Assembly (NCBI GenBank): GCA_026874595.1 | Contig: CM049312.1 | Location: 80,310,929 to 80,374,928, forward strand | Reading direction: 5' to 3' | DNA from: Sipunculus nudus | Taxonomy: Eukaryota; Annelida; Sipuncula; Golfingiida; Sipunculidae | DNA length: 64,000 nt | Shown: in pieces, positions 660 through 56,300 of the stretch | How the letters are laid out: each line of letters starts with the position of its first letter | How positions within the stretch are numbered: the first letter of the stretch is position 1 | Translations under genes and position numbers: made by a program | Notes under the pieces: generated by a model | Databases searched by the model: none | What the model was told of the DNA's origin: nothing | Seen by the model: the letters and a program-made list of their open reading frames with translations, nothing else

Positions 660-1440
660 TTTTTATGGATATATGATGTTTGAGGTCCAATGACATTTCT
701 CAGATTGGTTGTCCCCACGACGACCTTGGTAATTTTTGTATAATGCAACTTAGGGCCGCCATTGGTGAAAATTCTATTGTCTTCAATATCTTCAGAACCT
801 ACTAAGAAATCTGTTCCAACATTGCATCTAGAACAAGGTTGTCATGACCAAAGGTTCAAATGAAACAATATTAAAAGAAATTATTTCTATTTAAAGTTTT
901 AATATGCAAATTAGGGCCGCAATAGATAAAATGTCTGCTCTCTTCGATATCTCCAGAACTAACTAGGAAATCTGGTCCAACATTATGTCTAGACTCAGGT
1001 TTTCATGGGTAAAAATTCAAAGGAAACAATATAAAGAACGATTAATTTCGTATTTAAAATTTTAATATGCAAATTAGGGCTGCCATAGTTGAATATGTTA
1101 ACTTCTTTTATATGTCAAGAACTCACTATGATAATTGGTCAAACACTGTGTATAAATCTAGGTTTCCATGGTCAAAGCTTCAAATTAAACCATGTTTCTA
1201 AAAGTTCAGTCCGTGTTTTAAAATTTAAAATGCAAATTAGGGTCCAAATTGATGAAACCCTCTTTCCTTTATATATCAGCCGGATAAAATGATAACTAGC
1301 CAAACATGATATCCTAAGTTTACATACACAAAATCGTTATAAGACAATTGGGAAAAAAATCCAAATAATCTACCGCATTTTCAAAAGAACTAACCATAAT
1401 ATTATACAAACATTAAATCATGACTTAGGTTCAAACAAAA
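660..1440. repeat. Tandem repeat, ~163-bp unit, about 4 copies
   Basis: The phrase TGCAAATTAGGGCCGC or a variant recurs near 743, 905, 1068 and 1231, a period of 162-163 bases. Within each unit the order is the same: TGCAAATTAGGG, a (T)CT-rich 'cttc.atatct.cagaact' block, a 'ggtccaacat' block, then 'aggttttcatgg.caaa..ttcaaa..aaacaat'. The fourth unit decays into unique sequence after about 1300. Short open frames in this region are chance products of the repeat. The internal wording resembles the 'cttcgatatctccagaact' style of other dispersed repeats in the window. Confidence 0.7.
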
Positions 1441-1444
1441 CCTG

Positions 1445-2870
1445 AAAATAAGATTTTTAGAGTATTTTTATTTTTATTAAGAATAAAGGCTTTCCATATG
1501 AAAAAAAAATGCATTTCTGCAATATTTCAGTCAGAAACGTTCATTAGGTGAACAGGCTGGGCAAGGAGCTCAAGGGGCACGGTCCAACCCCAAATAATGC
1601 CTCATAGGCAAATTGTTAAAAGGGTTTATTATCACAGAGCTTCGATTGCTCTGATGTCTTCATGGCAATTTATGACCATGTTATTAACAACCCCGTGCAA
1701 AAAAAAACCTTAAGTTAGATATTCTTAAATGAGTAAGAAAAAACAAATTACAGGTCATTTTATCATGTCATTCTCCTTCAATGCACAGTTTTATCTTCAG
1801 AAGGGAACAGATGCTTAGAAACATGACTTTTTCGACCAGGAGGCCATTAATAAAAAAAAACAATATTTTCTTCATATGCAAATTATTAAAAAAAAATCAT
1901 GTTAAAATCCTAATGTAACTATTAAAAACAATTATATTGCAAAATAAATTAGAAACTCGCATAATAAGAGCTTCCAAAAGATCACATTAATATTTTGCGA
2001 ATTTTTTTTTGTAGATTATATCATCAGATGCCTGCGCTTTGTGAAAATACATTATCAGGATAAGTAAAAATAACAGAGAAACTTAAACCTAACAAAACTG
2101 CTAGTCACCTGCCTTGATGTTCGATGCATCAAGCGAGACCAGGAGACGAGTAGTTTGCTCACCGTCTATTAGATTTATCTATGGAGACAGGTCTTTTCCC
2201 GGAATAAGAGTGTTTCACCAAACCCAGTCAAATTATATCGGATCAGGCAGGCCAGAATCAATGCCCAGTTTTTTTTTAATTTTAATCGGTGTTTGAGAAA
2301 TGAAGAAGTTTAATTATACACTGAAGTGATTGAAAATGTAGTATATGATGGACACGGATATCTTTGTCAAAAGCTACACCGTCAGACTCAAGCTTAAGGC
2401 ATATCAAGATAGGAATTAAAGATACAATTAGGCATGTTCTACCACGAGAATTTGATTAATGTTTGTCTACCTAGGACTGCAAATGTGGTAACTTAGATTT
2501 GATGCGATGCAGCTCGGTAAACTACGATCAAACATGCAAGGCGTTTTATTTGATCGGTATACCCAAACAATGCCAGACCAAAACAGAGGGAAATGGTGCC
2601 ATAATTAAGAAAAAAAAACTACCTTACATCTCCATAAATCACACATCTTAATCACATCCAATCACATTCAATATGTATACAAACACTTATGATGATTCTT
2701 TGCTTCTATTAAATATTCTGGTGAATTGAAACATCTGGCCATGAAAAATGGACTAAAAAGCGTCATCATATCATAACCTGATCCTTTAGTCTTTAAATTG
2801 AGAATATACGTATATTAGCTGACAATAACACAACAATAGTTAAATAAAGCGAGATACCATGCGTTTTCTC
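1445..2870. other. AT-rich intergenic DNA, no gene seen
   Basis: This is AT-rich sequence with poly-A runs. The short open frame at 2114-2296 has no recognisable domain, no supporting splice context and no biased codon pattern, so I do not call it. No clear repeat copy was recognised apart from generic A/T runs. Confidence 0.5.
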
Positions 2871-2873
2871 AGT

Positions 2874-3298
2874 TTTACATTTAAAGATTTAAAGAACACC
2901 CTAGTTCTTGACTGGTGAGTATATATATTTTATTAACCCTATATCTAACATTTTGGTCAATTTTTGTGGCTAAACACTTGACCGATGGGTCATTGACTCA
3001 CACTTTTGTAACTTGTTATTCCTAGGGAGCAGACAGGCACCCGGAGTCAATCTTCTGTCGAACCCTCCTTACCGCCGGGTGATAACCTTTAAACTACCCC
3101 GGACTCTACAGTCCAGTTTGGGGTGCGTTACGGGGTATGTGTGAGTAAACAAACACTCTATGACCCAGGGAGGCGTAAACAAAACTACTGGGGTCTGAAG
3201 AACCAGGGGCATAGGGATTACCGGAAAGGGGGGGGGGGCGTGGCTGGGGAGGGGTACAGCATATCCGCTGGCCAAAGAGTGCATATTCACATAAACAC

Positions 3299-3299
<1 letters not shown>
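2874..3299. repeat. Dispersed ~430-bp repeat, copy 1
   Basis: The segment starting at TTTACATTTAAAGATTTAAAG and running to CATAAACACG is repeated almost base for base at 8168-8596. Differences are a few substitutions (for example GGGGTATGTGTGAG against GGGGTACGTATAAG) and a poly-G length change near 3230. Both copies run directly into a long (TA)n tract, so the microsatellite is probably part of the element or grows from its end. Open frames on both strands inside it are shared by the two copies and look fortuitous. A weak A-box-like motif on the minus strand lacks a matching B box, so I do not call it a SINE. Confidence 0.75.

Positions 3300-3347
<48 letters not shown>
3300..3347. repeat. 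(TA)n microsatellite
   Basis: About 48 bases of uninterrupted AT repeat directly follow the dispersed repeat copy 1. Confidence 0.98.
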
Positions 3348-3349
<2 letters not shown>

Positions 3350-3351
<2 letters not shown>

Positions 3352-4046
3352 GCCTACTTCAATATCCTTGTACCATTTTAAGACTGAAAACAAGAAAAAA
3401 TGTGACCTACATATAAAAGTGTAAAGTTATGACACTTGAAGTAAACATGACAAATACATTTATATTTTTTATATCTACTTTTATGTTTTAATTTTCTAAG
3501 TAGATATTACTGTTTTGAAGGTTTTCCCTGAATATAACATGCAAAGTTGGATTGAAGTGGTGGTGGCATGGCCCCAGGCGGCAGCCTCCTAGCTAGATAT
3601 ACCGCTGAGAAAATTCGAATGCACAATCCACAATTCTAAAGTTCATCAAATTAGTCATCATCAAATAAGTCGTCCTAATTGATTGATTGTTATCCGAAAT
3701 AGGCTTATTAGCGAAGAATATGTCCCGATAGCTAGATTAATATAGCCGAGGTAATGTGTACCCCCTGAGTCACGTATTGTAGCCCTATATCGCTCCTATT
3801 AACATGTAGGCGAGGACTGATCATTAATTATTCACATCGCAAACTGATCAACCATGTTGACTTTGGATGACGCTGAGTGACATCCTGTCGACACGGAAAT
3901 ATGTAATAAAGGACTGTGAATTATTTATTTGCCTTAATGTGTATGACCAGGAATTTTACGTGTACTTCTATTAATAATATGTCTGTAACCATATACTATA
4001 TGGCCTGCGGCACCTGGTTTTAAAAAGGTTAGTACAAAATAAATTT
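3350..4046. other. Intergenic DNA, no gene seen
   Basis: I see no supported coding region. The only notable phrase is a GC-richer stretch around 3560-3600. The LINE reading frame begins just downstream. Confidence 0.5.
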
Positions 4047-6026
4047 TTGTGGCACAATATTTGGAGAGATAGCGGGCGGCCCCGAACTGGATATGTTGCG
4101 GACATCCGACGTAGAACCAGAGCGAACTATCATAGAGTTGTTAAAAAGCTTCTGAGGGACGAAGATAGAGGGCGCTTATGTCGTATGGCAACAGCTGTGA
4201 CGAAGGACCACTCACGTAACTTATGGACGGAAATAAAAAAGTTACAGCCACCTCAAAGAAGTAATGCCCATATTATTGACGGATTAAACACAAATAAAGA
4301 TATCTCAAATAAGTTTAAAGATAAATACAATAATTTATATAATGTATGTGCAACAGATTCCAAGGAACAAGGAATTTTGATGGAGTCTATTCATGCTACG
4401 ATTGCACATGATTCCAACATCCTTCATCGAGATCATACCATAACGGTACAGCAGGTAGCAGAGGGAATAGCTATGCTGAAAACAGGGAAATCAGATGGAT
4501 TAAATAATTTATATTCTGACAAAATCATATATAGTTCTAACCGATGTAACGTTCTACTTTCTTAAATGTATACTGCAATGTTATCCCATGGGTATTTCCC
4601 ACGATGTATAAATAACTGAGTAATTGTGCCTATCCCCAAGGACAGAAATGGAAACCTGAACGACAGCGAAAATTACCGTGGTATAGCACTTAGTAGCTCA
4701 TTCGGTAAGCTCTTTGAGATCATCATATCTCAGGTATACAATAATTGTTTTCGCTCATCAGAATTACAGTTTGCTTTTAAAGAGAATCACTCCACGACAA
4801 TGTGTGCTACAGTTTTAAAGGAAATTGTATCTTATTATAGGTCACGAGGTAGTAAAGTGTATAGTTGTTGCCTGGATGCCAGCAAAGCCTTTGACAGACT
4901 TAATTTTGGTAAAATGTTTTCCTTACTTATTAAAAAGGGGATTCCTGGGGTTATCGTAAGACTTCTTTATGATCAATATAAAAATCAATCAATATGTGTT
5001 GCATGGAATGGTGAGACATCTGATAGTTTCTGTTCAAAAAATGGAGTGAAACAGGGCGGGGTGCTTAGTCCACTAATATTTAACCTATACATTGATGAAT
5101 TGTTATCCAGATTACGTTTAAGCGATATTGGGTGTCACATTGGACACAAATATGCAGGCTGTCTGGCCTACGCTGATGACCTGATGCTATTGGCACCATC
5201 GGCAAGCGGGTTACAAAAATTAGTGAATATCTGTAGCAAGTATGGGATAGAGTACTCCATAACATACAATCATAATAAATCAGTATGTTTAGAATTTGGT
5301 AATGAATTAAATATGGATTATCCAACTATTGTTTTAGATAACAATAAGCTAAAATGGGAAAATAGGATTAAATACTTAGGTATATATATTTCTAGTTCTC
5401 TCACAGACAGTGATGACATATGCCGTAAGAGGGCGGATTTCTTTGTGAAAGTAAACTCTCTTGTAGGGAACTTTGGTCATCTTCCTAGAAAGTTGGTGAA
5501 TATATTATTTTCCCAATATTGCTGTTCGTTTTATGGTTCACAGAGTTGGAAACTCAAAAGTAAAGATATTGCCTCTCTCATCACTGCATATAATAAAGGT
5601 TTGAGATGTATTTTGAAACTACCTCCAACAGCTCATAAATATATTGTATTAAATATAGCCGGGAAGAAACCATTAAGATGTCAGTTAGAATTGCGTTTCA
5701 TGAACATGTTTTATTCTATGTATAGTTCAGACAATTCTCTTGTTTCACATGTAGCTCGGAATGCTTGTCGAGACCTTTTGACTCATCTTGGTGGCAATAT
5801 TAGCTACATGATGGAGCAGTATGGGTTTTTATACGCAAAAATGTCCAAATCGTACCAAAAAGAGATTAGAAAACAGATTATTAATAGATTCTCATTTAAT
5901 GAAGATGAATATGCTCAGGCAGAGTTGGTAAGAGAAATTATTGAATGTCTTGATTGTACAATGTATGTAGAAAATTTTGACAGGGCAGATTTAAAACATA
6001 TGCTTGCCGTGATATCCACTCAATAA
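4047..6026 (+). pseudogene. LINE ORF2 reverse transcriptase, two in-frame stops
   Basis: One reading frame spans the whole interval and is broken only by TAA at 4563-4565 and TGA at 4617-4619. The part from 4626 is a 466-codon open frame carrying the classic RT signatures: CLDASKAFD (motif A, catalytic Asp near residue 84 of that frame), GVKQGGVLSPLIF near residues 140-152, and the catalytic YADD at about residues 182-185 followed by LMLLAPS. The portion before the stops holds the RT N-terminal and linker region and has no natural ATG at its start, consistent with 5' truncation. The protein would copy LINE RNA at the nicked target. Because only two point nonsense changes break a long frame, this copy is fairly young. 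Confidence 0.9.
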
Positions 6027-6162
6027 GCAAGCACAACGGCTTTTGACTATGCACACTTTATATTTTTGTTATAAAGCACGACAAATCTCTGCACTTTTTC
6101 ATGACCATATATATTATATTGTACAATGTATGTACGAAATAAATGATAATAATAATAATAAC
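4047..6162 (+). mobile_element. 5'-truncated non-LTR retrotransposon (LINE)
   Basis: This is the 3' part of a LINE: the pre-RT linker, the reverse transcriptase, a C-terminal region and a 3' tail. The endonuclease domain and any ORF1 are missing, as expected from incomplete target-primed reverse transcription. After the coding region there is an AATAAA at 6138-6143 and a short (TAA)n tail near 6145-6161, typical of CR1/L2/I-type LINEs. The element lies between the two copies of the ~430-bp repeat. I found no convincing target-site duplication. The clade cannot be fixed by eye. Confidence 0.9.
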
Positions 6163-6164
6163 TG

Positions 6165-8165
6165 TGTGAGTTATCGATGAAATAACCTGGAATCTTGACT
6201 GACTAGTCCATGTGGCTTATTAGCTGCCGTTAATACACGACTCAGTAGACGTCTATGTTTGGCTAGAAGTCCTTACTTGATTTGTGATAGAAGCCATACA
6301 GGGGAATGTGCTGTAACGTTCACCTATCCTCTTTCAATGACTACATGGTATACAGCCGATAATCTTAAGATTAGGTTACGAATGATGATTTAACACAAAA
6401 GAATACATGGAACTCACACAACAAACTGAAAATCCGTTTTTATGGTAACGAGTCGTTTCCTGTATCGCGTACTAGTTGGCAGCCGTCCAGTAATCCATGT
6501 GAGATATACTTGTGTTCATGCGGTCAGAAAATCAACAAATGTGCGGAGGGATTTACCAATATGATGAATGAATGAAGGTGTAATTGATTTTGTGCTTGTA
6601 TCCGCTATTATTGAGTGCTTGTTTGTTTTCTTTTGATGCATGCCTGAAGGTGTTATCGTCTCAGAAAGTTCTGATAGACGGTTGTTGATGGCCGAGGGGA
6701 TGTATCAAATGATAGCCGGGGGGGGGGGGGGGGGGGGGCGTCTGAATTCGTATTTATATGGGTGGGTTGTTTGGCTTTCTATACGGACTGGAGGTCCAGT
6801 GAAGCATCTAGTTAGTTGACTGATATCAGGTTTGTATCAGATTTGAAAATTTTAGTGAGCTATATCTGATCCTGTCCGCTTCTAGGCCTGATACCGATTT
6901 CAGGGTTACCAGGGTTCGAAACTACACCAAATTCCCGGATCTGAACCTCTAATTTATCATGTACCCAACGATTCAATAACGGCACCCCCTGGTAAAAATA
7001 AAAAAAACTGAGAAAGGCCATAGCAAGTTCGATATTGCGATAAAGAGTTACGACAGGGCCGAAGTGTGTAACTTAGTCTATACAGAAACAATCGAAAACC
7101 ACAATACAAGAATACTGTCTGAAAGGCAACAAAAAGAATCCAAGCAATAAAGGCTATGCAACTGCCGTACCAAATCTGGCTGCTCCCTCAATGGGAAATG
7201 CTTAGCATCGTCCAGTGTCTACCTAACGGTGCAGTTAACACGTAATTTGGCATGACCGGAGGCTCCTTTAAACAAATTAAGGTATTGCATCCACAAAAAA
7301 TCGTTCAAGCACAGGACCCATTTAAACGAAACTGAGCTTGCAAAACGTATTTGGAACTTGAAAGACAAGCAAGAAAGTTTCACTATTATCTGGTTAATAA
7401 TATTGCAGTCACCTTCAAGACCTCTTCACATCAGTGCAACTTGTGCAATCATAAGCTATTATTGTTACCGTAATACGACAGTACGGTCTCCTTTTTTAAT
7501 GCGGTGACACCTTTTTTATATGCACTTTCCGTATATCTTACGGTATTATCTGAGAACGCAAGATTTAATAAAAAAAGAGACATCAATCATTCTTCAAAAG
7601 TACTTAATTCAACGGATAAGTTCCAACGGGTTATGGCGACAAACCAAGACCCGTTTTCGTTTCTTACTTGACGTCATATATATATATTTATATATGTGTG
7701 TGTGTGTGTTTGTCCTGTCTCAAAGACATTATGTAATTGCATAAATTACCAAATTATATCAAAAGTATACGCATTCTACCAGTATGAAAGATAAAAGCAG
7801 GAATTGATCTGAGGAGCATTTCACGGTATTTAAGACATAAAAGTAGGGGGAAATGTGAGAATCGTTCAAGAATTTGATCTAGTTGAACAATAAGCTTTTA
7901 TATTTCAACCCAGTAAACACTTCAAGAGACTTATTCTAGGATTTCATTATTTTTTAACCAGAATTTAAAAAAAGTTGTAATTTCACGTAACGGAAGGGTC
8001 AACTTTAAAATTGAATTAATTATCAAACCAAAACTTCTTATTATTTTAGCTTCAAACTGACAAAGTGACATAAAGTACTTAAGTAATTTTCGTTATCCAG
8101 ACTAAATCATTGTTAAATTGGAAGCTCATTTATAGTTTTTTTCGTGTTTTACTTTAACTTCCAGT
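6165..8165. other. Intergenic DNA, no gene seen
   Basis: This holds a pure G run at 6718-6738 and a short (TA)/(TG) stretch near 7677-7710. The open frame at 7520-7744 reads into the microsatellite and has no recognisable domain. I see no other structure. Confidence 0.5.
6718..6738 (+). repeat. Poly-G tract (21 bases)
   Basis: A pure run of 21 G bases. It may form G-quadruplexes or be length-polymorphic or assembly-sensitive. Confidence 0.95.
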
Positions 8166-8754: not shown

Positions 8755-11700
8755 ATGGGTCCTGTGCGAGAAAGCCATCAAAGACACATAGGCAGGTCAA
8801 AATATCAGGCCAATACATCAAACTTACCTCCAGTCTGATGCATGGGGCTGACCAGGCTTAGGTGAGAAAGGCCTTTGCCCCGAGTGAACTGTGACAAATT
8901 TGATAGCTAGCTCAGGCTACTGCAATTAGTGAACTCATGACCTGCACTTGGCTAGAATGAGTGAACTTTCGACCTGTACCTGGCTGCACTGAGTGAACTC
9001 TTGACCTGTTACATAATCTGACACAGTTGGTAGTCCACATGCAGCCCTTAAGGGCATGACACGTATGAGGTGATCACATGGTGGCCATGAGGTGTTCACA
9101 TGTCACCCATGAGGTGATCACATGCCTTGTGCTTGGCTGCACTGACTGAACTCTTGACCTATATCTGGCTGCACTGACTGAACTCTTGACCTATATCTGG
9201 CTGCACTGAATGAACTCTTGATCTGTTGCCAAATCTGAAACAGTTGGCAGTTTCTCAACCTATTTTAAGATACGAACACAATCTTGGCCTGTTGATAAAT
9301 CTGTTTACACATACTGAAAGACTTTGGCTAAAATGCTTTTTTTTCAATCTGACATATTCATATACTTTTTATCAAAATATCTAAAATGACAAAAGATGCA
9401 GTTCTTTCATTGTTAAAGGTCCAATAATTCTGCCAAAAATCATTCAAGTAAACTTGAACAAAGGCCACCTAAGAATAATTTTTGTGCAATGTTACAGAAG
9501 TTATAATTGAAACAATAATTTTGTAGAAGAACAGTTTTGCAGTCTTCAGTTTGAAATAGACATAATAATGGCCATTGATTGAAAGAACCATGTCCTAGGA
9601 TAATTCTTTTGAAAAACTGAACGATTCAACTTGACAGTTTCATCATTAACATTTTAAGCTGAAGGGGCTAAAATTATGAGGTTTTTGCCCATAAAAAACA
9701 TGTCAATGTCTGCAACTTCAAATATGAGTCATGTAACCAACATTTGCACAATACTTGGTAATGCTAGCTTCTGTCATTTCCGAGATTATTATGTCAGTAT
9801 GCTTAATAGGCCAAATGACTGTTCTAATTCGTGTAACACCACCATCGATGCAAACCATCTGAACAAACTTGAGAGGGCTTGCCTCTGGGATCATTTTTGT
9901 AAAATATTGAACAATTTGGCTGGACCGTTTACAAGAAGAAGACTTTTAAAGGTTTTTCAGCTTTTTCCCTATAAAATCTAAGTAAATGCAGATAGCAAAA
10001 AAAAATAAGCTGAATCCCATAACATTTGATATGTGACAGATTATTGCATAAAATCTCGGCAAGGTAGCTCCTGCTATTCCTGAGAAATTATGCGTTAATG
10101 TACAGATGACCAATGACCCCGTACAAAAAAGGTCATTGCAGGTGGCGCCACAGTTACCTGAATTTCATATATTACTCATGTGACCAACACACGCATAAAA
10201 TTTGGTGATGATAGCTCCGGCCGTTTCTGAAATTATCATTTTAGTATGCTTTTTTGGACAGTTAGCTAAGTTTAATTTCCTGTAACTCGGCCAAAATTTA
10301 CCGAACTTAAATCATTCGGACAAACTTGAGAGAGATGATATAAAAGATTATTTCTGTGAAATATTGAATAATTTGGCTTGACTGTTTCGGAGGAGATGAT
10401 TTTTAAAGTTTTTTTAGCTTTTTCTCTATAAAATCTCAGAAAATGCAGAGTTTTTCAGATGGCTAATTTTTTTGCATTAAATTTCATGATACTAGCTCCA
10501 GTTGTTTTTGAAATAGAATAGGTTAACGACGACAACAGACAATGCCAAACCATCGCATTAGCTTACAGGTTCGCTGAAAATTACTACAGATGCATATTGA
10601 ATGCAAAATTATAATACAGATACATCTCACTGATGGCATAATCTTGAATTAAGTTGAGTATGGATACCAGTTATTTATAATCCTTGTACAGCGGTCTTTA
10701 TAAACACACAGATAGCTGTATACCTGTGATTGTAAACATTGCCTTGCATGAGGAATTTCTAAAATCATAAATCTACATTTTTTAAAAGCTTTTAAAAAAC
10801 TTTCTTGTCAATATTAACCATAGATAACCTGAAATCTAAATGTTTAGGGGCATGATGTAATGGATGCTGATAAACTGGTGCCAGGCTAGATGTATCTGCT
10901 TCACACAGCTAACATATATGGTAAAATGACTCAAATCAATCTTTACAATTCAGCCAAAATTCATTCTTTGGAACCATAAAAGACAATTATTATAAGAATT
11001 ATTCAGAGGATTATTCCTGTAAAATACAAAACAAATGGCCTCAGTGGCGTCAGTCAAAAAACGTTTTGCAGGTTTATAACTCATATGGGAAAATACAGCA
11101 AAATGGCTAAGTTAAGCTTCCCATAACTCAGCCAAAATTACTGAACCAAAACCATTTGAACAAACTTGAATTATCAACATCTAAGGATAATTTATGTGTG
11201 AGATTTAAGAATTTGGCCCAGTGGTTTTTGAGAAGAAGTTCTTTGTAGCCACTGAGCTAAAATGGGCCGTTATGGCATATGACTAAATTCAGCTTCCCAT
11301 AACTCAACCAAAAGTCACTGAACTGAGACCATTTGAACAAACTTCAGAAAGCATTACCCTAGAATCATTTCTGTGCGATATTAAACAATTTGGACATATG
11401 GTTTCAGGGAAGAAGTTTTTTGGTAGCAGTCAGTATGATACGGGCACTGATGACTCCCGTACAATAAAGGCCGATGCAGGTGGCGCCACCAATACTTCAA
11501 TTTCAGATATGACTCATGTGACCAACATTGGCATAAGATTTGGTGATGATAGCTCGAGCCATCTGTGAGATTGTAATTTTAGTATGCTCTAATTTACATA
11601 TGACTAAGTTCAACTTCCTGTAACTTGGCCAAAAATCGCCGAACTTAAACCATTCGAACAAACTTGAGAGAGATTGTTCCAAGAATCATTTCTGTGATAT

Positions 11701-11957
11701 ATTGGACAATTTGGCTGAACATTTTCGAAGAAAGAAGATTTTTTAAGGTTTTTTAGCTTTTTCCCTATAAAATCTAAGAAAATGCAGTTAGCAAAAAAAA
11801 AGCAAAATCCGATAGAGTTTTTTAGATGACTAAATTTTTGCATAAAATTTCGTGATGCTAACTCTTGCTGTTTTCAAGATAGTATAGTTTAACGTACAGA
11901 CGACGGACGACGGACGCCGGACGACGTCACACCATCGCATAAGCTCACAGGTTCGCT
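8755..11957 (+). repeat. Composite dispersed repeat with ACGGACGACGG tail, copy 1
   Basis: Two long sub-segments recur elsewhere in the window. 8755-9560 matches 44790-45510 (shared 'gctgaccaggctta.gtgagaaaggc' and 'ctgcactgagtgaactcttgacctg'). 10577-11957 matches 54943-56300 (shared 'tgaatgcaaaattataatacag', 'gatgataaactggtgccaggctag', 'cccgtacaa.aaaggcc'). Inside, a phrase around 'aacaatttggctg.accgttt...gaagaaga' followed by 'agctttttccctataaaatct' repeats several times, giving a loose internal tandem structure. The right end has an 'acgacggacgacggacgcc' purine/C tail followed by 'cgcataagctcacaggttcgctaa'. No coding frame of its own was recognised. Confidence 0.65.
8925..9240 (+). repeat. 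Degenerate ~35-bp tandem units inside the composite repeat
   Basis: Units reading approximately TGGCTGCACTGAGTGAACTC followed by TTGACCTGTA recur about seven times between 8925 and 9230. The best-preserved neighbours are near 9130, 9166 and 9202, about 35 bases apart. The same unit occurs again at 44955-45150 in the second copy of the composite repeat. Confidence 0.6.
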
Positions 11958-12784
11958 AAAAATTATTTATTCTCATATAGACGAGGTCACTGAAGTTACC
12001 ATAACCTTTAAATGAGGTATAGCACGGTTCATACACAACACGGTTTCAGAGAACATTGAGGACAAAGGTTGACGGACTTCCTTATTAAAGTATAAGGTAT
12101 CGCTCAGTGATGCCATCTAGTGAAGGTTGATGTACTTTCTCTGATGCCCCTCTCTGTAATCGTCCCTTCACCTTGCGTGTGTTTCCCCTGGCGTCTTAGC
12201 CACGTTACTTGAATGCTTGCGTGTTGTAGGAACATGTAATTATCTTATCGAAGATCAACTCTTTATTATAAAAAAAAGGACGAGCGCCCGACGTAACACG
12301 AAAGGCCTCCTGGAGGTCTCCTGAACAAGTTGTCGACAACAGACAATTTGTTTGTACTTCACGACATTAAAAAATGTACTAGTATGAGGTCTTTGTTAGA
12401 ACACGCTTGTCTAGTCCAAAGACGCTGTATTCCAATCTGAAGCTCGGCTCCAACCGACATTTTGCAAGCCGAGTCGGGGGGGGGGGGGGTGTCCTTACCG
12501 TGTGTAAATAGGGTTGGGTCACAGATAAATACCACATATAAATCATGTTGACAGATGGCGCCACATTTTGGTTGTCTGGATGGAGACTTAGGTACACTTG
12601 CAGACTGACTCGATCACTTCATTGAAATATCTATCCCGTTTGTGATAGGAAATAACATAAAATTTCATTTTCAATATGACTTTCAATGAGCGAGTCGGGC
12701 TGCGTCCCTTTACGAAGTATAAAGCATACCCTACTACAGCGGCCAATATAAGGAAAAATGATACACTGACACTTCCGTAATTGA

Positions 12785-47474: not shown

Positions 47475-48384
47475 ATGAGGGAACAAATATATGAAATTCT
47501 GAAGTTACAGCAAACAAATGCTATGCTCGTACAGGAACTCCCAAAGAGCAATGTAGAATGTTCCTCGTTGCGTAAACTTCTGCTAGCCCAACACACCACA
47601 GATACTTCGTATTCGACTTTGCAAATGCTGATATTTCACACCAGTCCTGGTCTCAGGTTGTCTCCAAGTCGAGGTCGGAGACTTCAGGTAGTAGAAAGAG
47701 GTCCTCGAGTGCACCTGATAGCTCACAGAAAACTAGACCAACAAATCCCTGCGCCCTGATCACGAATCACAATCTATGGCACATAATACTTCGCCTGAAT
47801 CTTCAAAGAATAAACGTTCTTCTAGACAGTGTCTAGTTATTGGTGATTCAATGGTTAGAAATTCAGGAACATTACTTTCTCAGCGACTGCCAAACATGAA
47901 GACAAAGGTAATCAGCACAAGTGGACTAAAACAGGAGAAAGCCAAAGACCATATCATAAGAGCATCCAGAAACCTTAAGAAGGGTGATTACCTACTGCTG
48001 CAGATTGGAACAAATAATCTGTACACTGACGATTCGCTGATTCTCCTTGACAAATACAAAAATATTATAGACTCTTTTGCCAATTCTCAATGCAACTACC
48101 ACATTATTGTGTCAGCTATTCCTTACCAGTTTTGTGTCCATAAGGTAGAAAAAAATAAAAGAATTAAGGGTATTAATGCAAGATTAGAAACAGAGTGCTC
48201 AAAACTAGAGAACGTATCCTTTATTCAATGCTGCCCTGACCTGTCTAGAAATAATTTCAGCAAAGATGGAATCCACTCTTCATATTCAGGAATAATCACT
48301 TTTGTTGATCAACTTGTTAGTGCAATTAAAAGAATTAATAATTACTCACATTTTACAAGGGAGCAGGTAATACAGTTGAGCTAG
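47475..48384 (+). pseudogene. LINE ORF1, coiled coil and SGNH-esterase part
   Basis: After the premature stop the frame encodes a leucine/glutamine-rich stretch. A frameshift near 47620 is followed by a third frame (47776-48384, 202 codons) with the SGNH hydrolase blocks: LVIGDSMVRN (block I, Ser), LLQIGTNNLY (block III, Asn) and KDGIHSSYSG (block V, Asp and His). An esterase domain joined to a PHD finger is known from CR1-type ORF1 proteins. The esterase segment itself is intact in its frame and keeps the expected catalytic residues. Confidence 0.85.
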
Positions 48385-48629: not shown

Positions 48630-49058
48630 AGAAAATTAAAGGGATCAAATTAGTTCATCTAAACGTAAGAAGCTTAACAAACTTGATGAAATTTTTTATT
48701 TATTCCTAAACTCTGAAATACATATTATATCGTTAAATGAGACATGGTTAGACAGCTCAATTAGTGACAATAATATAAACATTTCAGGGAATGCACTTTT
48801 TCGTCATGATCGCAATAGACATTTATTTCCCGTCCTCTTGGACAACGTTGCAGAAAATATAGAAGTTATTTTTGTTAAGGTTAAATGTTACAATAGAAAC
48901 GTCACCATTTTATCTGTTTATCGTTCGCCTTCAGCTTCTTTAAACAACCTGATATCCTGTATAAATATTTCATTATCTTATGATTTTCCACTATTTATTT
49001 TTGGTGATTTCAACCTTGATATATCGAATAATTCATCAAAATCTAACGTTTAACTGAG
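48630..49058 (+). pseudogene. LINE ORF2, endonuclease N-terminal part
   Basis: Reading with one frameshift gives KLVHLNVRSL (48649 onwards), IISLNETWLDSSI (about 48728) and then, in the frame 48838-49053, SVYRSPSASL and FIFGDFNLDI. These are the apurinic-endonuclease-like motifs (LN, NETW, SVYRSP, GDFN) that nick the target DNA. The frame stops at TAA just before the TIR element. The sequence suggests one T was lost in a T run there, because reading one base on lets Leu-Thr-Glu-Gln continue towards the element junction. Confidence 0.8.
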
Positions 49059-49074
49059 CAATGGACCTTTCCGA

Positions 49075-49140
49075 TTGCTGGCCCTAAGCCCCGCCCCCCT
49101 TAACGACGGTTGCTAAGTCCCACATTTGTCCAAGCGGGCA
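49075..49140 (+). promoter_or_regulatory. GC-rich putative promoter at the left end of the TIR element
   Basis: GCCCCGCCCCCC (Sp1/GC-box-like) and GGTTGCTAAG lie just inside the left TIR, about 75 bases upstream of the first ATG (near 49164). The surrounding genome is AT-rich, so the GC content is notable. Function is inferred. Confidence 0.35.
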
Positions 49141-49159
49141 CATGTACTTGGTACACGAG

Positions 49160-49449
49160 AACATGGCATGGCGGCATCCCGCGACTCGCTCGCACATACA
49201 AATCCCTGACAACAAATCATATTAGTTTTGCCAGGACAAGTCATCTTGTCAAAGAACACTTAAAGAGATAATCAGAGATACGTGCATGATCAGATGATAT
49301 AAAAATGTGAAAAACATCAGGAGCGATGGCGTCTGCGTGACAGCCCCGGTGTTGCATGGCGCTCTGAACGGAATTCTAGGACGCCTGAATCTTTAGTACG
49401 AGCTTGAGGACGACATATTAACTGAGTCATATATCACCTGTAGAAAAGG
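49160..49449 (+). pseudogene. Putative first exon of the TIR element's gene (SAP-like trace)
   Basis: The stretch has moderate GC content, an ATG near 49164 and a good donor (AAAAGG|GTAAGA, GT at 49450). In its 3' part one frame reads ALNGILGRLNL and the next frame continues STS. That resembles the 'L...L...gLstsG.k.eLi.rl' core of SAP DNA-binding motifs. Several stops and frame changes mean it cannot be read as one protein. The call is weak and depends on the SWIM-like exon downstream. Confidence 0.25.
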
Positions 49450-49904
49450 GTAAGATATACTTACTTAATTTACATTTTCTTTCAAATATAATATTCATTT
49501 GTCTATGATGACGGTGAGTAATACTTATAGTTCGGCATAGGAACCCATACCGGTAATATGACAGACCTCGCGGTTGTTGGTAAACAAAGTGATGCCATGT
49601 GACTTGCGGCCCAACGTCAAAACATTGCCCGTTAAACGAAAAATGAATGGGTCTAATGTGTTCCTTTTGCCTTAAAATCTTATTATAAAATAAGATGGGC
49701 ATATAATTATTAATTAAACGATTTTTTTCCTGCTCTATAGCTACTAACGTGAATTTTAACTAGATTAAATCTATATTTTGGACTATGTTACACATTATTT
49801 ATAACACTAATAAAAATAAAGGTCATTTTATCATCAAAAGGGCCGAGTTTGTATCCATAGAAAATGTATACATATTCTCTAAATATAGATATTTGTATCC
49901 TTTT

Positions 49905-50107
49905 AGATCATATGGGCACTGCTCCCATTCTTTGGGCCTATTTAAATCCTTCCACGGGCTGAATTCATAAGCATTCCTGCCGAGCTCAGCAGCACGAGCA
50001 CACCTAAGAAGTGGAATGTGCCCGTACTGATAAACAATCTAGTGGTAGCCGGATCAACAGAGTCCAGGAAAAAAAAACAGTGGTCGGCAAAATGGACACC
50101 ACCATGA
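49905..50107 (+). pseudogene. Putative SWIM-domain exon
   Basis: After an acceptor TTTTAG (about 49900-49905) the DNA encodes SYGHCSHSLGLFKSF and, after a frameshift, IPAELSSTSTPKKWNVP. This resembles the end of SWIM zinc-binding domains (CxHxx.alLf, then a CTS...KW..PR tail), with one Cys apparently changed to Ser. A further frame change leads to MDTTM and a consensus donor GTAAGT at 50108. SWIM domains precede YqaJ-type nuclease domains in many transposon-encoded proteins of invertebrates. The first zinc-binding CxC was not found. Confidence 0.35.
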
Positions 50108-50160
50108 GTAAGTATAAATTATCTTTAACTTATCGCCCCACTCTAACACTAATAAGGTTT

Positions 50161-50180
50161 GTAAAAAAAAAAAAAAAAAA
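50161..50180 (+). repeat. Poly-A tract
   Basis: A run of about 18 A bases near 50163-50180 inside the TIR element, in the intron proposed above. Confidence 0.9.
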
Positions 50181-50650
50181 TCTGATGCTTGATTGCAAAT
50201 ATTCTGTATATTTAAAGAATATCCCCATCACTTGCTGATATATTACTGTGCCAAATAATAGAGAGAAAAAAAAGACACTGGTTTTAAATTTTATTTCCTT
50301 ATTAGTGACTGGACTGATGACCTCTAATGGCTATATCAGATGTTTTTATATAATATGCCATGACACGCACACATCCTAAACACAAATACTAGATTGCTTG
50401 ATTACCAAGTAATGGGTAAAAAATTTTTTTGCTCACAGAAACTAGGTTGACATAGTTGATGCCAGTGCATATTCATTTCATTGTCCTTGCTTTTAATTAA
50501 CTGTATGGTATTGACCATTAATTCATTCTATCATTATGATGATGAAAATATGTAATGTAAAAATCAGATATAACCATATGAATTACCATGCATGATGCTA
50601 GTCCTTCAATTTTATTGTTATAAAATTAAAATATCTGGTTGTAGGCCAAT

Positions 50651-50818
50651 ACATGGAGCTGCAACAAACAAAACCAAATCCAGAAAGGAAAGGATGTAGG
50701 AATCTGAACTTGCCCCATGCCTCTCCTGTCACAGTACCTAGCATTCGAACGAGGATTATGTGTGACTTACAGCCAGAAGATCTGCAACATAAATGCCAAT
50801 TTCTAATGATATTTAAAT
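50651..50818 (+). pseudogene. Putative downstream exon of the same gene
   Basis: An acceptor TTGTAG is followed by a clean frame starting GQYMELQQTKPNPERKGCRN and ending at a TAA near 50818. Its entry phase (two bases) matches the one-base remainder left by the donor at 50108, so MDTTM joins as Ser-Gln-Tyr-Met. I do not recognise the domain. The phase match supports a spliced gene, but stops and shifts upstream suggest this copy is dead or a pieced-together remnant. Confidence 0.35.
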
Positions 50819-51180
50819 AATACTCAAGACCAGACATATGTGATATTTTTTTGTAACACCAGTGATACAATGTCATATAGTAAATGTTGATGTATAAGTG
50901 TATTGGCGTACACAGACTTATGAAAGAAGAATAAAAATTATGAGTCTAGTTTTTCTCTGTGTATGAACTGTTTTTTCAGAATAAGTTACTGTGTTTGTTT
51001 TAAGTATTTCTCTTCAATAAAGTTTTGAATCTGGGGTGTATTTTAGGGTCAACTACAGATATGAACTGGTTGAAAATTCTAATAACATAACATCAGGTTT
51101 AGCCCAGAGTCTCATAATTGTAGATTCATATATAGGCGTACATTTGTCAATATGTAATTCTACTAGTACTATGATGACTG

Positions 51181-51194
51181 GGGGGGGGGGGGGG
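51181..51194 (+). repeat. Poly-G tract
   Basis: Fourteen G bases within the TIR element. Confidence 0.9.
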
Positions 51195-52386
51195 ATTACA
51201 ACATAGCACTATTCCACTCTAAATATTGTGGTACACGTCCACTTGCCCCCAGACCATGTCTGTAGAGTGTATAATGGGCACTGTCCATATATTATTTTTC
51301 TATTATATATATTTATATTTTTATTACTAAAATTACTACACTATTTCACATTCAAATATTCAGTACCCCCATTTTCTATGCAAAAATCATTTAAATCAGT
51401 ACTTTGCTTCACACAGTCAAACCATTAATGAACCAGTGACATCACTGACATGACTTGCAGTTGGCAACATGAATCAAATTGATTTAATGCTACTATTGCT
51501 AGTTCATTTATCACCACAATCATTTTGTCACCAACATTTTACATGTGGTTTGCCATGGGTATAATCATGAAACAAAGTTCACTTGGTGTTGTTGTTGACT
51601 GTTGTTATCCATGTCTATCTAATAAAGCAGTGTTCAAATAGTGACCAAATTGTTCATTATCACAATTAATTGTTAACTATAATTTTATTTTTTTAAATAA
51701 ATATTTTTAAAAGTTCTAAGACACTGAATAAACCTCAACATTTATAGTCTTCCCAGTTGTGTGAAAGTGATACTGAAATATCTATATTGGTTTAGGGATT
51801 TAAGTTCATAGGGTTTCCTTTTCTGATTTAACAGAACATTAACTTAAAAAATAAAATAATATCACCTACATTAATAACATCCTACATACAATTTTCCCTA
51901 CACTAATTTATTTATTTATTACTCACATCATTATATATAAATGGAGTACTATCAATAAAAAAATGTTTAAATCAGAAAACAAAATTTGATAAAAAAAATG
52001 TTGACGTAATATTCATAAATAAATAATTATATATAGGCACGTGTTATACATTACTCTTCCCACATGAGAGAATAAAATCCAAGTTCAATGCATCGCAAAT
52101 TCACAATGACAAGGCCAAACCAAGGGCTGAATTCTTACTGCTACAATATAAACAAAAGTCCGATGCAGTTGTCAGGTTGTTACTCTGTAATACGTGCAGA
52201 GCCAAACTGGGTCCACAGTCAACACTGTTGCAAGCGCCTGTTCCACTGAGCTGCTGAGTGGGCTGAATGTACCACGTATCTTGTGTTTGTTTGATATCAT
52301 GAATTTTTCACATGGGCGATGGGTCTTATTAAACGGGGTACCCGGAGACAGTAACGAAAACGTTCGGATACAGGCCACTTCTCAGA

Positions 52387-52421
52387 CCCCCCCCCCCCCC
52401 CCCCCCCCCACACACACACAA
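52387..52421 (+). repeat. Poly-C/(CA)n tract
   Basis: Twenty-three C bases followed by six CA units. Frames on both strands crossing it (52194-52457 and 52382-52591) are partly low-complexity. Confidence 0.95.
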
Positions 52422-52558
52422 CCCCCACCCGTCCGGTTCAAACTTACGCTTGAATGACCGGCTATATGTGGAAAGTAATCGGTTGTCAGTAACTGAACAA
52501 ATGAGAAACTCTCGTAACAGAAACGCGAGGATAAAGTGCGATAGCTAATGACACTCAC

Positions 52559-52591
52559 CGTTGAAGATAAAGCGTTCTGGCACTTCTGCAT
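52559..52591 (-). other. Possible first coding exon on the minus strand near the right TIR
   Basis: On the minus strand an ATG at 52591 opens MQKCQNALSST and is followed directly by a consensus donor GTGAGT (52558-52553). It lies about 370 bases inside the right TIR and downstream of a CCAAT/CRE-like region, so it may be the start of a second, leftward gene of the element. No second exon was identified. Confidence 0.25.
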
Positions 52592-52859
52592 TTTTGCTTA
52601 CAAATCCTGGTGACGTTGAGCTGGCTGTGCACTGTGCGGCCACCCACACGCCTTAGTCCACCAGAAACATTTCGCCAGTTCAGTCTTCGGGATTAAAATA
52701 AGCCTGGCCCCTCCCTAACCTTTTAGAGTATCTCTGGTCACCGTTGCACGTTCCCCATGAACTTCAAAGAACCATAGTTCGTGGAAGAAAAGGCCGCACA
52801 AAATAAGGTACTGTCATATCCAAGTGCGCACGGTCCCACACACGAGGTTGGTTTGTGGG

Positions 52860-52944
52860 ACAATATAGCGGACACTTGACACGTGGCGATCACGTCATAA
52901 ATGTCGTAATCTGATTGGCCAATTGGTTACGCATGATTGACATG
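52860..52944 (-). promoter_or_regulatory. Putative leftward promoter at the right end of the TIR element
   Basis: Reading inward on the minus strand from the right TIR there are CCAATTGG with CCAAT, TGACGTGATC (CRE-like) and CACGTG (E-box) within about 80 bases. The density of standard promoter motifs next to the TIR is suggestive only. Confidence 0.3.
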
Positions 52945-52960
52945 TCGGAAAGGTCCATTG

Positions 52961-54865
52961 TATGACCTCTTCCAACTACATCAGTTAGTACAAGAACCAA
53001 CAAGGGTAACCCCAACATCTTCTACTATCATTGACCTGATTTTCACTAATGTTCCAGAATACCACTCGCCCGCTGGGGTCGTACCTGTAACAATGTGATC
53101 ACTATATGCCGTTCACCGTTCTCACTTTCAAAACCCATGCACAACCGGGTAATACTATAAAAAATTATTACAATAAGTTTGACATACTCTCCTTTCATCG
53201 ACATACTCTCCTTTCATCGAGAATGGTTTTTATCACCATAACTTGACTCTATAAGAACGTTTAGCATTAATGATTTGGATGAATTATGGAATATATGGAA
53301 AGAAAACTTTCTTAGAATTTGTCAAAAACATGCACCCATAAGAGTAATAAATATCTCAAATGAAAAGCGTCCATGGATGACAAGTGATATCTTAAAAACT
53401 TATAAGACATAGAAATAAAACGCATAAACTTGCATGTAAAAATAAATCCCAACCTCTTTCATACAAATATAGGGCTTTACGAAATTTCATTAGCACAAAA
53501 ATAAGGTATGCGAAAATAAATTATTTTCATAAAACTATCGATATGAATAAGGGTAATACAAGTCAAATGTGGAAAGCACTGAAATTTATTTAACCAAACA
53601 AATTGAACAATCGACCGTCTGCAATCGAAATGACATCAAATGAGTTTAATCAGTATTTTAGCCAAATAAGCGAATCTTTAGCAAAACGATTTCCATATTC
53701 TTCTGAATATCTGGGTGGTAAGCCTTCTTCTCTTACAAATGATCGCTTTTCTTTCAGGAAAAACTACGCAACTGAAGTTTTTAATGAAATTATTAAATGA
53801 AAAATAGTTCTAAATTAGACTTAATTAATATGGATACTCGTCTTATTCGTGCAGCGTCTGATCTGATTGCACCTAGTCTCGCATACCTGTTTAATAAATC
53901 CCTTTCATCCGGACAACTGCCATCTGATTGGAAAAAAAGGCCAAGATAGCACCTATTTATAAAGTAAAAGGAAAATGCAGTGAAATGACAAATTATCGCC
54001 CTATATCAATAATCCTTCATGTTGCTAAACTTCTTGAGAAATTAATTAAAGATCAAATAATGAATTCGTCATTGATCATGTTCTAATCTCGTATAATCAA
54101 CATGCATATTTACCAAACATATCAACTTCAAGTGCTCTTCATACCTTTATTGTTGACATTTATTCACATATGGACAAAGGAGATATCACTGTTGCTTGCT
54201 ATCTCGATCTAACCACAGGTTTTAACACAATAAATCATCCTATACTCATCTATAAGCTAAGCCTGTTAGGCTTTTCTATAAACCTGGTTTAGGGCTTATT
54301 TAAAAGATCGTCAACAAATAGAACATTGTAATGGCAAAACTTCTAGGATACAAACGGTTAATATAGGAGTGCCCCAAGGTACTGTTTTGGGTCCTGTTCT
54401 CTTTCTTTTATATAGATCTTCAATCGCCTGAGACCTGCATAATGCATCGCTTATGCTGACGATACCACCATCTATTGTCATGGTTCTACCATATCTGTGG
54501 TGCAGCAAACCTTACAACAAGCAGTAAATGCTGCTTGCAGCTGGTTCAATGCTAACAAGTTAACCATAAATATTAACAAATCTACTGTCATGTTACTGGG
54601 TACCAAAAATCGTGTAAATAACCATGACCTTTGTATCACTGCTAATGACATACAGTTCTAAGAATCAACGGAAACCAAACTATTAGGTGTAACTGCTGAT
54701 GCTAATTTATCATGGTTCTCACATGAAACTACCCTATGTAAAAAGTTGTCACCATACTTAGCACTGTTACACCGCCTTAGTAAAGTACTATCCATAAATA
54801 CATTAATAACAGTCTGTAATACCATGATTAAGCCACATATCGACTATGCCATAAGTGTATGAGGC
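52961..54865 (+). pseudogene. LINE ORF2, rest of endonuclease and reverse transcriptase
   Basis: The sequence resumes with YDLFQLHQLVQEPTRVTP and STIIDLIFTN, the C-terminal part of the endonuclease. It then passes through a heavily broken linker (an open piece at 53603-53800) to RT motifs: NYRPISII near 53990, VACYLDLTTGF near 54195 (motif A), a VPQGTVLGP-like stretch near 54370, and AYADDTTIYCHG near 54450 (catalytic loop), followed by LTINI and KLLGVTAD. Stops and frameshifts occur every 50-150 bases, so it is long dead. Confidence 0.8.
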
Positions 54866-54929: not shown

Positions 54930-56300
54930 CAGGAATATATGAAAAATTATTACAGATGTATACTGAATGCAAAATAATAATACAGGTACATCTCACTAAT
55001 GGCAAATTCTTGAACTGAATTGAGTATTGAACCAATTATTTTTAATCCATGTACAGCTGTTTTTATATAGCCACAGAGAGCAAAATATCCAGGATTGTAA
55101 CATTGCCACGTATGATAAATAATTTAAATTATAATTCTAATTTTTTAAAGCTTTTAAAAACATTCTTGTCAATATTAACCAGAGATAACCTGAAATCTAA
55201 ATGTCTATTGACATGATGTAATAGGTGGTGATAAACTGGTGCCAGGCTAGATGTAACTGCTTCAAACAGATAACATATATGGTAAAATGAATCAATTCAA
55301 TCTCCATAATTCAGCCAAAAATCATTCATGTGGTACCATTAAAGACAATTATTATAAGAATTATTGTTGGGATTATTCTTGTAAATTATTAAACAAATTG
55401 GCTTTATCGGCTTCAGTTGAAATTTTTTTTGCATATTTATAATTCATATAGTAAGATACAGCAAATTGGCTAAGTTCAGTTTCCCGTTACTCAGCCAAAA
55501 AGCATCAAACTTGAATTATCTGAGGATAATTAATGTGTAAGATTTAAGATTTTGCCCAGTGGTTTCTGAGAAGATCTTTGTAGCCACTGAGCTAAAATTG
55601 GCTGTTATTGCATATGACCGAATACAGCTTGCAATGCCATACCTCAGCCAAAAGTCTCTGAACAGAGACCGGTTGAACAATTCAGAAAGCACTACCCTAG
55701 GATCATTTCTGTTCGATATTAAACAATTTGGCCATATGTTTGCAGAGAAGAATTTTTTTTGTTACCCTCAGTATAATATAGACACTGATGACCCCCGTAC
55801 AAAAAATACCAATGCAGGTGGCGCCACTAATATCTCAATTTCGGATATGACTCATGTGACCAACATTGCCATAAAACTTGGTGATGCTTGCTCCAGCCGT
55901 TTCTGAGATTGAAATTTTTGTATGCTTTTTTTTTGGCAGATGACTAAATTCAATTTCCTGTAACTCGGCAAAAAATCATCAAACTGGAACCATTCGAACA
56001 AATGTGAGAGAGACTGTTTCTGGGATTATTTCTGACAATTTGGCTGGACTTTTTCCGAGAAGAAGACTATAAAGGTTTTCAAGCTTTTTCCCTATAAAAT
56101 CAATGTAAATGCAGAGAGCCATAAAATAAACAAAACCTGATAAAGTTTTTTAGATGACCGTTTTTTTGCATATAGTTTGGTGATGCTAGCTCCAGCTATT
56201 TTCGAGATAGTTTGGGTTAACGTACAGACGACGCACGAAGCACACCGCATGACGGACGATGCTGCACTATCGCATAAGCTCACAGGTTCGCTAAAAATCT
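54930..56300 (+). repeat. Composite dispersed repeat, copy 2 (3' part)
   Basis: Matches 10560-11957 nearly throughout: 'tgaatgcaaaata.taatacagg', 'aatctaaatgt', 'gataaactggtgccaggctagatgta', 'agcactaccctaggatcattt', 'ggtggcgccactaat', and the tail 'cgtacagacgacg...' then 'cgcataagctcacaggttcgctaa'. It begins just beyond the decayed LINE. The frame at 55559-55906 is a repeat by-product. Confidence 0.7.

Follow-up and report, generated by a model that had tools for sequence, protein, structure and literature searches.

The DNA analysed here, called the window throughout, is a 64-kb stretch (64,000 nucleotides) of the Sipunculus nudus genome (G000:C7:80310929-80374928), and the genome surveyed comprises 1.43 Gb in 153 contigs. 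The window holds an old LINE copy that looks CR1-like, interrupted in its endonuclease part by an element with inverted ends. The CR1-like label comes from the original prediction, and we keep it as an assumption, based on the order of the domains. As that prediction stated, LINE sequence lies on both sides of the insertion; we find weak GDSL-esterase and Exo_endo_phos_2 matches on the left and an RVT_1 match on the right. The features are listed below; slashes within short sequences mark junctions.

47776-48384, plus strand: LINE ORF1, with a weak GDSL-esterase match (E 1.5e-4, below the curated cut-off)
48904-49060, plus strand: degenerate endonuclease portion of LINE ORF2 on the left side of the insertion, with a weak Exo_endo_phos_2 match (E 0.078)
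49061-49062, unstranded: AT target duplication, left copy (target A/AT/T)
49063-52956, unstranded: transposon as delimited under the AT-duplication parse, 3,894 bp, ends set by comparison with other genomic copies
49063-49074, plus strand: left terminal inverted repeat (TIR) GGACCTTTCCGA, 12 bp
49163-49300, plus strand: eroded sequence close to the left end that shares homology with another family copy, L141 (66% identity)
49973-50092, plus strand: second coding-like remnant, common to the family (51 matches at E up to 10)
52945-52956, minus strand: right terminal inverted repeat TCGGAAAGGTCC
52957-52958, unstranded: AT target duplication, right copy
52959-54694, plus strand: part of LINE ORF2 on the right side of the insertion, with the endonuclease C-terminus followed by reverse transcriptase (RVT_1, E 4e-12), degenerate and in two frames

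Ends of the element and target junction

The exact inverted ends described originally, CAATGGACCTTTCCGA and TCGGAAAGGTCCATTG, are present at 49059-49074 and 52945-52960 and measure 16 bp each. The original prediction saw no matching short duplication outside them. However, an AT lies flush with GGACCTTTCCGA at 49061-49062 and with TCGGAAAGGTCC at 52957-52958, and it was overlooked because it had been counted into the inverted repeat. Parsed with an AT target-site duplication (TSD), the junction reads CA/AT/GGACCTTTCCGA...TCGGAAAGGTCC/AT/TG, with one AT before the insertion and two after it. Since AT is its own reverse complement and lies within the palindrome AATT, this parse and the one without duplication yield the identical empty site CAATTG, and at a single insertion site the two are indistinguishable. 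Within the element we also observed homopolymers of 15 G (51180-51194) and 23 C (52387-52409).

Helitrons insert between A and T and end in TC...CTRR. A Helitron-type insertion without a TSD would account for the position between A and T, but it is already contradicted by the perfect 12-bp TIRs at both ends and by the lack of TC...CTRR ends, and we consider it extremely unlikely.

We also considered whether the inverted repeat could have arisen by chance, with no element present. In the window, the 14-mer ATGGACCTTTCCGA is found exactly at the two element ends only; allowing up to 3 mismatches it occurs 4 times in the 64 kb, no more commonly than in shuffled sequence (mean 4.31). Genome-wide, the 16-mer end with up to 2 mismatches shows a modest excess (351+366, versus 253+296 for the reversed control). 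Both of the mismatch-tolerant counts could be quoted in favour of a chance repeat. It is the matches to the 300-base ends, at 40 and 41 places, rather than the TIR counts, that clearly demonstrate a genuine element. The first 300 bases match at least 40 places at 82-100% identity (40 of 73 candidates scored) and the last 300 at least 41 places at 75-100% identity (40 of 66 candidates scored), own copy included in each case. The search for further copies sharing the ends, which the original prediction had suggested, revealed a family. In 18 stretches fetched around such ends, the aligned blocks share 81-97% identity with the window element, apart from one L141 block at 66%, and some copies align with it over kilobases. 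Together with the LINE copies that lack the element (see below), these matches already refute a chance origin, whose probability is negligible.

The empty site in uninterrupted LINE copies

When the LINE flanks were joined at CAA/TTG, 39 matches were obtained in the genome, two of them being the window's own halves. Among 20 other LINE copies read at this point, the empty site is CAATTG in 17, and C-ATTG, CAATTT and GAATTG in one copy each. The uninterrupted copies therefore indicate that CAATTG was the target here, which is what the original prediction expected intact LINE copies to carry. Among the family insertions, the empty site was examined for that of the window only. The GAATTG copy (L229, G000:C17:40228330-40228470) has an unrelated left side: its LINE homology starts only with the AATTG of the target, either because the copy is truncated at its 5' end or because a break or a further insertion occurred at this site.

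The joined LINE had originally been read as Glu-Gln-Leu-Tyr-Asp-Leu-Phe flowing in frame across the junction. Locally this translation is correct, but the window LINE copy differs by one base from other copies just upstream of the junction and is out of frame there. The reading frame across the joined LINE is, moreover, unable to separate the two junction parses. On the 3' side of the LINE we noted a 1.4-kb repeat, with window positions 54943-56298 being 80% identical to 10577-11963.

Flanking sequences of the family copies

The flanks of family copies were compared after near-identical flanks had been merged, and 61 distinct ends were counted with a looser filter and one additional locus; this is the count used here. 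A stricter filter, which dropped some ends, two non-AT ends among them, gave AT in 55 of 57 distinct ends. Two sets of copies with identical flanks, L129, L130 and L131 (G000:C7:20.38-20.48 Mb) and L135 and L136 (G000:C10), were each counted once; these shared flanks are presumably duplicated genomic segments.

The dinucleotide directly outside the element is AT at 56 of the 61 ends (TT at 3, AC at 1 and GT at 1), and the base beyond it is A, likewise at 56. The next base outward is mixed (C 26, T 18, G 11, A 6), and the tip base of the element itself is G at 45 ends, T at 11 and A at 5. As the outer C/G of CAATTG varies, the target is A/AT/T, and we reject CAATTG, put forward originally as the target of the family.

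Both junctions were read for 20 separate insertions: in 12 the two ends fell within one fetched stretch, and in the other 8 they were matched up by their location and orientation. AT lies on both sides in 19 of the 20, a pattern that is formally equivalent to blunt insertion between A and T; the exception, L149/L177, has AT on the left and AA on the right. Left out of this set were copies truncated at one end and the older relatives L171/L188 and L201/L189, which have a different right end and in which, as judged by eye, AT adjoins both ends. Whereas the original prediction deduced that nothing had been duplicated, a deduction it regarded as vulnerable to a consistent 2-9-bp duplication in other copies, these 19 insertions carry precisely such a duplication.

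Relatives with the other right end, TCGGAAGC (L188-L190 and L207-L212), have AT adjoining in 8 of the 9 read. By eye, the neighbour of this AT is mostly not the A or T of AATT, so AT is firmer than AATT; the same neighbour counts against the interpretation given below. Two short derivatives, L138 with 682 bp and L139 with 68 bp, retain both the ends and the flanks of the family.

In the stretches around family copies, other genes were encountered, namely an LTR-retroelement integrase in L144, an LTR-retroelement reverse transcriptase and protease in L146, and a SCAN domain in L143. A scan of IMG/VR with the TIR pattern returned at least 120 stretches, and the subterminal sequence of the family was absent from the 94 contexts judged by eye. 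A literature search by the TIR letters, in open-licence papers, yielded a single paper, which deals with bacterial beta-lactamases.

Comparison with known transposon groups

In PMC4482050, the groups of the PHIS superfamily are defined by their TSDs. ISL2EU is described there as an animals-only group with an AT TSD, a target A/AT/T confirmed with empty sites, TIRs of 6-259 bp that usually start with GG, and a DDE transposase with HTH/THAP accompanied by a second ORF with a YqaJ domain. Passages of PMC9179366 and PMC12730594 likewise assign a DDE transposase and a YqaJ protein to ISL2EU, and give duplications of 0, 2 or 3 bp for Harbinger relatives. Our family resembles ISL2EU in its AT duplication, in its target A/AT/T, to which both the neighbouring A and the empty site of the LINE copies conform, and in its short TIR starting with GG. 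It differs in that some relatives have T or A, not G, at the tip, and in that neither a YqaJ ORF nor a transposase is recognisable in the window copy; the lack of a transposase is what a non-autonomous copy should show. The PIF/Harbinger, Pangu, NuwaI and NuwaII groups belong to the same superfamily of TIR elements, but none of the TSDs given for them in PMC4482050 (TWA, ANT, CWG and TNA) fits.

The original prediction favoured a Spy-like element. Spy is described in PMC4482050 as having a strong AAATTT preference and no TSD, and in PMC11304231 an active Spy in human cells used AAWTT at approximately 60% of sites without duplication. A Spy-like or other blunt insertion would make the element T-GGACC...GGTCC-A, placed exactly between A and T. 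Such an insertion predicts the same empty site, its AT-rich target is reminiscent of Spy, and the 19 concordant paired insertions have A to the left and T to the right of the would-be element, whose T...A termini would in that case represent conserved tips. Nevertheless, the AAATTT preference is not found here, with an outer A at only 6 of 61 ends; the core of the target in this family is instead AATT, flanked by a variable outer base, and AT is repeated at both ends. Blunt insertion would also require the tip base to be conserved although the base just inside it varies (G, T or A), whereas the AT duplication needs only a target already described, and ISL2EU-type gene pairs occur in this genome (see below). 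We therefore consider a Spy-like or other blunt insertion unlikely. What stands of the original assignment is that a DNA transposon with TIRs, belonging near Spy and ISL2EU within PIF/Harbinger, inserted at CAATTG.

Coding remnants and search for an autonomous parent

A six-frame Pfam search of the window copy, up to E 5, detected neither a transposase nor YqaJ; the lone match was a weak DUF. The eroded stretch at 49163-49300 has a counterpart in L141 that forms an open frame of 97 aa, which, judging by a motif, may correspond to the N-terminal part of a YqaJ protein of ISL2EU. Compared with YqaJ proteins, the coding remnant showed weak similarity to their N-termini (E 0.20), its score being reached by 182 of 2000 shuffles for L216 and by 34 of 2000 for L217. 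For the second remnant, many of the 51 matches coincide with places matched by the element ends, as far as the part compared is concerned.

Searches for an autonomous parent with the L141 ORF (10 matches including itself) and with the second remnant (the 51 matches at E up to 10) turned up the fragments L218 and L241-L243. No DDE_Tnp_4 was seen inside a family copy among the 150 scored of 701 candidates, the lists being compared by eye, and genome searches found no autonomous copy with the family ends. Consequently, with no transposase recognised in the window copy either, the ISL2EU assignment rests on the ends and the target.

One candidate parent, the family copy L216 (G000:C17:52658950-52666340), carries at ~2838-4890 a YqaJ gene (67 bits) with weak SAP and SWIM matches, interrupted by a reverse-transcriptase frame. 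We reject this gene as the family's own, and L216 as the autonomous parent. Homology of the L216 insert with the unrelated locus L240 begins at AAT/ACGGGGTTC, exactly where family homology stops, and the gene looks nested because this left boundary, preceded by AAT, is common to both loci. The nested insert looks, from its sequence, like another ISL2EU-type element using AT. In L239, the other near relative that was read, homology starts ~125 bases further in.

At a second locus, a remnant match (C10:12434550) lies ~10 kb from a DDE_Tnp_4/YqaJ pair (L245, C10:12444010-12445377). A family left end is present at G000:C10:12433680 (L244), reading AAAT/TGACC, but the 5.5 kb read around the pair showed no right end of the family. 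The genome also carries an ISL2EU-type gene pair at L217 (G000:C7:22957300-22964000), where a YqaJ ORF (540 aa) and a DDE_Tnp_4 transposase ORF (400 aa) are convergent and sit, at ~1040-6220, between inverted repeats. The L217 ends are unlike those of our family; judged by eye, they allow a reading as AT adjoining ACATAGT.

Since our searches tied no transposase to the family, the element could belong to another or an undescribed DNA transposon superfamily that also duplicates AT. We regard this as quite improbable, since TSD, target and TIR start all match one described group.

Interpretation

Our observations are best explained by an ISL2EU-type DNA transposon of the PHIS superfamily that is non-autonomous, moves by cut-and-paste and duplicates AT on insertion (probability about 0.84). 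In favour of an AT duplication, the tip base varies while the AT outside it is mostly constant; in favour of the ISL2EU type, the genome carries genes of that type, the L217 pair being an example. The short derivatives L138 and L139, with their intact ends, fit such a family. Against this reading stand the 5 of 61 ends that are not AT, and L149/L177 with its AT and AA.

In our model, a DDE transposase from another element, presumably an ISL2EU transposase acting in trans, would bind the 12-bp TIRs, excise the element and join it to A/AT/T, cutting the two strands of the target with a 2-bp offset. Repair of the gaps would then copy AT to both sides, converting CA/AT/TG into CA-AT-GGACC...GGTCC-AT-TG, so that AT would derive from the target rather than from the tip of the element.

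In none of the copies read at both ends does a non-palindromic dinucleotide recur on the two sides. Wherever a dinucleotide does recur, it is a palindrome; duplication is therefore unproved over blunt insertion, and the reading without duplication keeps its formal standing. It is distinctly improbable, in our view, that blunt insertion between A and T, with an element T...A, is the rule in this family and places it between ISL2EU and Spy; if so, what has been described as AT duplication in elements of this kind would be partly an artefact of palindromic targets.

The family is an ordinary relative of a known transposon group and has little significance on its own. Its insertion in the window, for which numerous LINE copies supply the exact empty site, provides a clean example of a palindromic 2-bp duplication in a palindromic target that is absorbed into the TIR and mimics insertion without duplication.
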